Positions 9,958-11,286 of a stretch of DNA of 41,759 nucleotides are shown piece by piece (position 1 is the first letter of the stretch; each line of letters starts with the position of its first letter). This stretch comes from Actinomycetes bacterium. Its GTDB lineage: Bacteria > Actinomycetota > Actinomycetes > Propionibacteriales > Nocardioidaceae. The position numbers and the translations under genes were made by a program. The notes under the pieces are model-generated. The model was not told the origin of the DNA. It ran no database searches and saw nothing but the letters and a program-made list of their open reading frames with translations. Where the stretch lies: assembly GCA_030432975.1 (NCBI GenBank), contig JAUILS010000004.1:1-41759 (forward strand). The letters are read 5' to 3'.

Positions 9958-9987
9958 CTTCGCAGCCTACGGGGTGGGTGCGGGGGG

Positions 9988-10083
9988 TGGAGGTTCACCA
10001 TGTGATGCTGGTGAGTTGTCACTTCTCGTGCTGAGTTCACCGTGGGAAGTGATGGTTCGTCTGCATCACATGATGAACCTCCA
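9988..10083. repeat. palindromic repeat copy 1 (96 bp)
   Basis: TGGAGGTTCACCATGTGATGC...GCATCACATGATGAACCTCCA; inner arms TCACTTC.../...GAAGTGA. Aligns without gaps to copy 2 at roughly 80% identity by eye. Confidence 0.9.
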
Positions 10084-10120
10084 GTGACGCTGAGGTGAGG
10101 GCACGGCCGACCCGACGAGG

Positions 10121-11065
10121 TCAGGCGGCGCGTCGCATCAGGGCGGCAATGCGCGTTGCGGTCTCGCGAGGGTGATCGAGATCGCGCCACACGAGGCGGA
10201 TCATTGCGAAGCCGGTGGCCTCGCGGATCGCGTCCTCGCGTTGCTTCTCCCGGAAGACGACGTCGCCGGGATCCTGGCCTTCGGCGAGCAGCCGTCCATA
10301 CTTCATCCGCCCGTCGAACTCCCCCAGCAACCCCAGGTCTGGCCAGCCCCAGTCGCAGATGCCGAGTAGGTGTCCCGACGCATCGTGGACGGGGTACTGG
10401 GTTTGAGGCGCCGGGAGGTGATGGCGCCAGAAGAGCCAGCGGCCCCTGGACTCGCCGGGGCTCTGGCCGCCGGCGTCGGCTAGTCGGACGGGAACATGCA
10501 GTCGCCGTGCCCCGGGCCACTGCGCCATCTGCTCGAACGCGCTCTGAAGTTCATCTGGGGTGGTGAGGCCGAGGTGGAGCGAGGAGTCGAGCATCACAAG
10601 GGCACGCTCCGGAGTGACGAGCGTGCTGGACTCCAGCACACAACGCGCCGCCGAGAGCGCCGTGAGCCCGTTGTCCAGATGGTGCACATCACGGCCTTGC
10701 GCTACGCCGACGTGGTGCTCGACGTCACCCTCGATCCGCCCGGACCCATGGTCGAGCCGGGTGACGTGGACCCTCCTTAGCGGGACTCCCCAGGTGGCCA
10801 CACCATGGGCGAGAGCGCCGGCGACGTGGCTGAGAGCGACCCTAGGACCTAGCGAATGGAGGACTGCTGACGAGCGGATCAGATGCTTTTGCTCCGGCGA
10901 GCTGGCTGCCCACGTGTCGGGGGATGTGTAGTAGCCACGCCGAAAGCGAATCCACTCACCTCGCCTCAGCGCGGCGGCGATGTCGCGGTCGTGGAGGCCG
11001 ACCGCGCGGGCATCCGCTCGGGTGAAGAAGTCACGGTCGTCGAGCAGGTCTGAGGGGTCGATCAT
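10121..11065 (-). CDS. orphan AbiEi-like (type IV TA antitoxin N-terminal wHTH) protein with Vsr/DUF559-like C-terminal domain
   Basis: ATG at 11063-11065; N-terminus FFTRADARAVGLHDRDIAAALRRGEWIRFRRGYYT matches the AbiEi N-terminal wHTH pattern; C-terminus ICDWGWPDLGLLGEFDGRMKYGR...EKQREDAIREATGFAMIRLVWRDL resembles the PD-(D/E)XK Vsr-like domain often fused to it. Confidence 0.75.
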   Translation of the reverse strand: MIDPSDLLDDRDFFTRADARAVGLHDRDIAAALRRGEWIRFRRGYYTSPDTWAASSPEQKHLIRSSAVLHSLGPRVALSHVAGALAHGVATWGVPLRRVHVTRLDHGSGRIEGDVEHHVGVAQGRDVHHLDNGLTALSAARCVLESSTLVTPERALVMLDSSLHLGLTTPDELQSAFEQMAQWPGARRLHVPVRLADAGGQSPGESRGRWLFWRHHLPAPQTQYPVHDASGHLLGICDWGWPDLGLLGEFDGRMKYGRLLAEGQDPGDVVFREKQREDAIREATGFAMIRLVWRDLDHPRETATRIAALMRRAA

Positions 11066-11181
11066 GGTTCGACAATGCCGGGAAGATGGGCCCGTCGATG
11101 CGGCGTACTCACAAACCTTGCCCCGGCGGCGCTTGCGCGGCTGCCTGTGCACGGAATCTGGCCCGCTGTCTCTCGGTGCGA

Positions 11182-11286
11182 GGGTGGAGGTTCACCAGGT
11201 TATGCAGGCGAGTGGTCGCTTCTCATGGTGAGTTCATCATGAGAAGCGATGGTTCACCTGCATCACATGGTGAAGCAACAACACCC
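11182..11286. repeat. palindromic repeat copy 2 (core 11191-11274)
   Basis: TTCACCAGGTTATGCAGGCGAGTGGTCGCTTCTCATG...CATGAGAAGCGATGGTTCACCTGCATCACATGGTGAA; outer GGGTG...CACCC. Ends 1 nt before the glgB stop codon. Confidence 0.9.

Follow-up and report, generated by a model that had tools for sequence, protein, structure and literature searches.

A protein joining an AbiEi-type wHTH to a putative nuclease half is associated with dispersed palindromic repeats in Actinomycetes

Introduction

RAYT genes are flanked by two inverted REPs, and the cognate REPs are abundant where the gene is present (PMC2817692); the RAYTs are single-copy, while the REPINs are mobile (PMC3116915). Two further groups of proteins are relevant to the locus described here. 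AbiEi antitoxins and Rv2827c bind inverted repeats in their own promoters and autoregulate (PMC7319586), and MTES_1575, a Vsr-type restriction endonuclease, occurs in conflict proteins (PMC3710099). The tagged-REP survey makes no mention of actinobacteria (PMC3733652), and a 2025 REP survey gives REP counts for actinomycetes without a RAYT or a nuclease (PMC12306157). In the open-access full-text literature we found no description of an AbiEi/DUF559 nuclease with palindromic repeats, nor of an actinobacterial REP with a nuclease.

Results

The gene and its two palindromes

The window, that is the whole stretch of 41,759 nucleotides that was analysed, has a G+C content of 72%; it is one of the 358 contigs (C285) that make up a draft genome of 3.43 Mb. 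A first-pass annotation had described in it a minus-strand gene of about 315 codons with an AbiEi-type wHTH, lying between a GNAT-NUDIX gene and glgB and lacking an AbiEii partner. All of this was confirmed: the gene encodes 314 aa (Table 1), the GNAT-NUDIX gene is found on one side and the GlgB gene on the other, and between them there is no AbiEii toxin gene and no room for a further gene. As no toxin gene adjoins it, the locus is not an AbiE toxin-antitoxin pair.

The two palindromes said to flank the gene are indeed present, one on each side and both intergenic. They are imperfect palindromes of ~95 bp, 84% identical over 93 bp, and their hairpins are far stronger than those of shuffled DNA (z of -5.6 and -7.8 for copies 1 and 2, respectively). 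A third copy had also been mentioned, and none was found in the window. A blastn search of the own genome with the palindrome returned 18 rows that correspond to 11 places, copies 1 and 2 included, leaving about nine others dispersed; a palindromic core is common to nine aligned own-genome copies. Rfam returned sub-threshold matches to eukaryotic microRNA precursors alone, which were taken as chance hairpin similarity.

Table 1. Position of the gene, its parts and the flanking palindromic units in the window.
Feature	Position	Strand	Remark
Palindromic unit copy 1	9985-10085		intergenic, in the spacer that separates the gene's stop codon from the GNAT-NUDIX start; downstream of gene
Gene, AbiEi-wHTH / putative PD-(D/E)XK (Vsr/DUF559-like) protein	10121-11065	minus	ATG start, 314 aa; proposed trans-acting partner of the palindromes
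Nuclease-like C-terminal part (residues ~198-314)	10124-10474	minus	invariant residues, profile match, weak Vsr-like fold matches
K255 codon	10301-10303	minus	invariant in 28 homologs; putative catalytic role
D251 codon	10313-10315	minus	invariant in 28 homologs; putative catalytic role
E249 codon	10319-10321	minus	invariant in 28 homologs; putative catalytic role
D238 codon	10352-10354	minus	invariant in 28 homologs; putative catalytic role
E205 codon	10451-10453	minus	invariant in 28 homologs; putative catalytic role
wHTH part (Pfam AbiEi_4, residues 7-48)	10922-11047	minus	Pfam match
Palindromic unit copy 2	11182-11274		intergenic; 117-209 bp upstream of the gene's ATG

The encoded protein

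In Pfam the protein matched AbiEi_4 alone (33.8 bits, with a cut-off of 25); DUF559 gave no match, no Pfam nuclease threshold was passed, and there was no match to HUH/Y1 (PF01797) or to a DDE transposase. NCBIfam and PHROGs had no match, and the PADLOC models scored the N-terminal part as AbiEi and nothing else. The AlphaFold2 model was confident (pLDDT 92). Structure prediction, which the first-pass annotation had proposed as a check, recovered by Foldseek the fold of Streptococcus agalactiae AbiEi (6y8q, E 1.3e-5) and of Mycobacterium tuberculosis Rv2827c (1zel, E 2.6e-3), whereas the matches to the Vsr-type fold (Vsr, I-Bth0305I and AbaSI) were weak (E 0.3-0.9).

Over their full length, the AbiEi-type proteins of the own genome that have DUF559 and/or MTES_1575 matches align with the family to which the protein belongs (hhalign probability 99.8, E 1.2e-27). 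An alignment of 28 sequences identified S202, E205, R207, P220, D238, E249, D251, G252, K255, Y256, E273, R276, W293 and D295 as invariant, so that the putative nuclease residues, a search for which had been suggested as a further check, are all retained. The nuclease assignment therefore comes from the profile comparison, the conserved residues and the weak fold matches, not from Pfam DUF559, and it led us to consider the C-terminal half a putative PD-(D/E)XK (Vsr/DUF559-type) nuclease. The Vsr/DUF559-like region that had been proposed from the letters is supported, as a putative domain, by the strong profile match to the DUF559/MTES_1575 paralogs and by the residues, but not by a Pfam DUF559 match.

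Bracketing of homologs by matched repeats

The protein and the palindrome were searched in 59 genomes, the own and related ones. The best homolog belongs to Nocardioides sp. SR21 (G010; 57% identity, C3:85562-86494). It too has a palindrome on either side, at 85359-85448 and at 86509-86598, and more than a dozen dispersed copies are found in its genome. Other homologs, mostly 34-55% identical, are also bracketed, by different palindromes, the repeat sequence varying from gene to gene; in many of them the repeats are inverted, 70-95 bp long, and consist of an outer and an inner hairpin. A comparison of flank against flank showed a matched upstream/downstream repeat in 26 of 28 homologs. The own flank pairs outscored all pairings with the flanks of other genes, except for L027 (a near-tie) and for L031, L032, L038 and L040, whose upstream flanks have a longer neighbouring sequence in common with the downstream flank of L020. 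This flank of L020, like that of L105/L113, resembles an acetyl-CoA acetyltransferase gene at its 3' end, so that diverged homologs may sit repeatedly at one chromosomal spot.

A scan of the genome collection with a narrower alignment (A2) gave 80 named loci, 75 of them with enough flank, from Nocardioides, Marmoricola, Aeromicrobium, Microlunatus, Rhodococcus, Prescottella, Hoyosella, Geodermatophilus, Pseudonocardia and other genera. A matched repeat on both sides (flank-pair score of at least 25) was found for 61 of the 75, and for none of 403 control intervals shifted along the same loci, whose score never exceeded 23.5. Across the class, 110 of 198 genomes have a homolog (E<=1e-30); 27 of 30 loci, which were the best-scoring ones with the window's own gene included and not a random draw, were bracketed, as opposed to 0 of 118 shifted intervals. 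On the strength of these controls we rejected the possibility that the bracketing arises by chance or from base composition. The enrichment of homologs next to palindromes, which had been put forward as a test, is therefore clear, and we regard the gene-palindrome association across Actinomycetes as nearly certain.

Mismatched gene pairs also reach high flank scores (maximum 70.5), as expected where the homologs are close relatives. Inverted pairing scored better in 36 of the 54 strongest flank pairs. The higher the identity of two proteins, the more similar their repeats tend to be (Mantel rho 0.385, 0 of 500 permutations), a trend to which shared ancestry contributes. In the distant homologs L294, L295, L298, L292, L300 and L304 the terminal repeats have a TGATCACGTT-like motif near the outer end, and the rest differs.

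The remaining 14 of the 75 homologs have no bracket despite an intact E-x-D-G-x-x-K-Y motif, so loss of nuclease residues was rejected as the cause. Four loci of N. luteus and its relatives (L128, L130, L135 and L136) are collinear over 8.9 kb and have an intact-looking gene with no matched flanking repeat.

Dispersal of the units

Fourteen repeat families were concatenated, with N between them, and this single query was run against the 14 genomes from which they come. In all 14, which belong to the order of Nocardioides, the own repeat was dispersed, with 14-87 rows per genome, a count in which one palindromic unit may give two rows. Among the matches listed for these families nearly all were to the genome's own family, with two cross-family matches. 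Of seven more distant genomes, six had their own repeat dispersed (26-53 rows each), which brings the number to 20 of 21 further genomes; it was dispersed too in four genomes of two species pairs. The exception was G196, in whose genome only the two bracketing copies were found. The gene match of G196 (L298) is C-terminally truncated (783 bp, profile positions 6-267 of 311), a single case from which no trend can be drawn.

In a complete genome (G012), 20 copies (L177-L196) have two identical ends and unrelated flanks. The unit comprises a first hairpin (TTCAGCGATCCCCGG/CCGGGGATCGCTGAA), a second hairpin (CTTGTCAGGCC/GGCCTGACAAG) and, after these, a tail in which one arm of each hairpin occurs again, TTCAGCGA-GAG-CCTGAC. 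This tail (TTCAGCGA...CCTGAC) is reminiscent of the guide-like sequences of IS200/IS605.

The window's genome contains further pairs of this kind. Its AbiEi/DUF559-like genes L312 (C37), L313 (C272) and L315 (C324) have inverted repeats of their own (scores 46-56.5), and weaker cases are L308 (C122; score 28.5) and L316 (C132; three palindromes nearby). The repeats of all five are also dispersed elsewhere in the same genome.

Occupied and empty sites, and genomic context

In the region of the gene, Nocardioides sp. 503 and N. lijunqiniae share about 90% identity, and each of the two species has roughly 25 units. Among 20 unit sites of sp. 503 that were fetched, about half match a fetched unit-bearing site of N. 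lijunqiniae. At three sites a unit is present in sp. 503 and the N. lijunqiniae site is empty, which may represent gain or loss. Each of the three is situated between a stop codon and an apparent opposing gene end, and neither a target duplication nor a clear target motif was evident at them, the two species differing by about 10%. When relatives were aligned around the gene, clean excision of the whole cassette, the boundary of which had been proposed for inspection, was not seen. One N. lijunqiniae locus (L106, near 3629) is without a 148-bp stretch of L104 (near 3832) that takes in the start codon and some of the spacer upstream of it; its gene may be damaged, although units persist in the N. 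lijunqiniae genome.

The neighbours of 57 units in four genomes are convergent genes in 28 cases, tandem genes in 24 and divergent genes in 2, with 3 unclear, the gene strand being called by a G+C-phase heuristic. In related loci, strand switches of the convergent and of the divergent type are equally common (213:207). The avoidance of divergent regions may reflect selection rather than insertion preference, and would be expected if the units are tolerated only at a distance from promoters.

Discussion

A two-part system as the probable explanation

The gene is bracketed, the arrangement is conserved across Actinomycetes, each gene has a repeat family of its own, this family is dispersed with exact ends, and its sites differ in occupancy between relatives. 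Because this is the pattern of REP/RAYT organisation, we propose mobilisation in trans: the locus is probably part of a REPtron-like two-part system, composed of a sedentary gene, single-copy, between two units and of dispersed, non-autonomous units that its protein would mobilise. The first-pass annotation had taken the protein and the dispersed palindromes for one module, either self-spreading or devoted to genome defence. The module is supported by the bracketing of most homologs; "self-spreading", however, fits the repeats and not the gene, since the latter is present as 1-5 diverged homologs per genome (protein search, E<=1e-40, 59 own and related genomes) and is syntenic in relatives. 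The gene-bearing form has not multiplied, and thus movement of the gene itself was not seen.

As for the mechanism, the wHTH would bind the cognate palindrome or hairpin, which is plausible because AbiEi proteins bind inverted repeats (PMC7319586). Judging from the conserved residues, the nuclease domain could nick or cut the palindromic unit at its edge, after which another intergenic site would gain the unit, by copying or by capture. We know of no strand-transfer chemistry for a hydrolytic nuclease, and for this reason we assign the joining or re-insertion of the unit, speculatively, to host repair; Ku/LigD end joining exists in actinobacteria and could join the unit leaving no target duplication.

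Alternative explanations

The units might instead be operators or chromosome-organising sites, spread by another process, with the AbiEi-like protein acting as an autoregulator or nucleoid-type factor. AbiEi and Rv2827c do autoregulate through promoter inverted repeats (PMC7319586), copy 2 lies, as the annotation had noted (at ~125 bp), upstream of the start codon where such a site could be, and strong hairpins between convergent genes could also be terminators. We nevertheless consider this explanation unlikely: a matched copy is also found downstream of the gene, dozens of copies with exact ends occur elsewhere, which requires DNA mobility, and a repressor needs no conserved nuclease-type motif.

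MITEs are non-autonomous derivatives of DDE transposons, and the dispersed units with fixed ends are MITE-like. If they depended on an unrelated transposase, for which our scan covered Y1, the AbiEi-like gene would be a mere passenger between two of them. Bracketing in most of more than 100 homologs from many genera, each with its own dispersed family, does not fit such a passenger, and the window's genome contains further AbiEi/DUF559-like genes with repeats of their own. Moreover, PF01797 (Y1) was absent from 10 of 10 repeat-bearing genomes, while it was detected in control genomes. We therefore find a passenger gene quite improbable, and a RAYT/IS200 enzyme, absent from these ten genomes, was likewise rejected as a hidden mover.

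Quite improbable as well, in our judgement, is a genome-defence module in which the palindromes label self DNA or shield it, and DNA that lacks or carries them is a target of the nuclease. The AbiEi score in PADLOC and the presence of MTES_1575-type Vsr endonuclease domains in conflict proteins (PMC3710099) would agree with it. Nevertheless, the interval from the GNAT-NUDIX gene to glgB contains neither a toxin gene nor a methylase gene nor any other gene of defence, PHROGs gave no match, and the units stand singly among ordinary genes, so that the defence role first suggested for the locus was not borne out. A plasmid-borne element was also considered and rejected, as a single weak, partial plasmid match was all that was found.

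The AbiEi_4 match of the protein and its fold match to 6y8q and Rv2827c might indicate an orphan antitoxin of type IV (AbiE), next to which palindromes happen to lie. This is very improbable, given bracketing far beyond chance and a conserved nuclease-like half that AbiEi does not have.

Implications

Returning to the REPtron-like system, our results suggest that the protein helps small repeats to spread by means of an enzyme type not previously linked to such elements. On balance we lean towards a wider proposal, namely that wHTH + PD-(D/E)XK/Vsr-type proteins constitute a widespread class of DNA-mobilising proteins in Actinomycetes that spread cognate units in trans; they would be a counterpart of REP/RAYT by convergence, with hydrolytic instead of HUH chemistry, several pairs per genome would be possible, and many proteins annotated as "AbiEi antitoxin" or "DUF559" would belong to them. 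If true, this would account for where many of the short palindromic repeats of actinobacteria come from (ten repeat-bearing genomes have no RAYT). It would also reveal a function, so far overlooked, of the many proteins that currently go by the name of orphan AbiEi antitoxin or DUF559 protein, and would mean that populations of REP-like repeats had two origins or more, with enzymes that are unrelated. For direct tests of specificity, dozens of pairs of protein and palindrome are available in nature.

Comparison with known systems

With AbiEi antitoxins (6y8q; Rv2827c, 1zel) the protein shares the N-terminal wHTH and the overall fold of its first half; unlike them, it has no adjoining AbiEii toxin, it has an extra C-terminal nuclease-like half, and its inverted repeats lie on both sides of the gene and genome-wide. 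The resemblance to Vsr, DUF559, MTES_1575 and the EDxHD homing endonucleases (I-Bth0305I) consists of the profile match, the weak fold matches and a D-x(10)-E-x-D pattern with an upstream E, but here this putative domain is fused to an AbiEi wHTH, with no mismatch-repair or intron/intein setting. Like MITEs, the units are short non-autonomous copies with the ends of a gene-bearing element; in contrast to MITEs, the bracketed gene has no DDE-transposase match, no target duplication is visible and the gene-bearing form is not multiplied.

The closest likeness is to REP/RAYT (REPtrons and REPINs; TnpA-REP, related to IS200/IS605), in which a single-copy, diverse gene also lies between two palindromic repeats (PMC2817692, PMC3116915, PMC8266576), the cognate repeats are dispersed in the same genome and mostly extragenic, each gene has its own repeat, and several independent gene-repeat pairs occur per genome. 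The units described here measure 55-105 bp and have two or more hairpins, as opposed to REPs of 20-40 bp (PMC3733652). RAYTs are HUH/Y1 tyrosine transposases, whereas our protein combines an AbiEi wHTH with a PD-(D/E)XK-like domain; with no HUH/Y1 domain in it and no PF01797 in the ten genomes, it is not a RAYT. By its behaviour alone the system would, on a cautious view, count as a variant within the REPtron kind; by its enzyme it is of a new kind.
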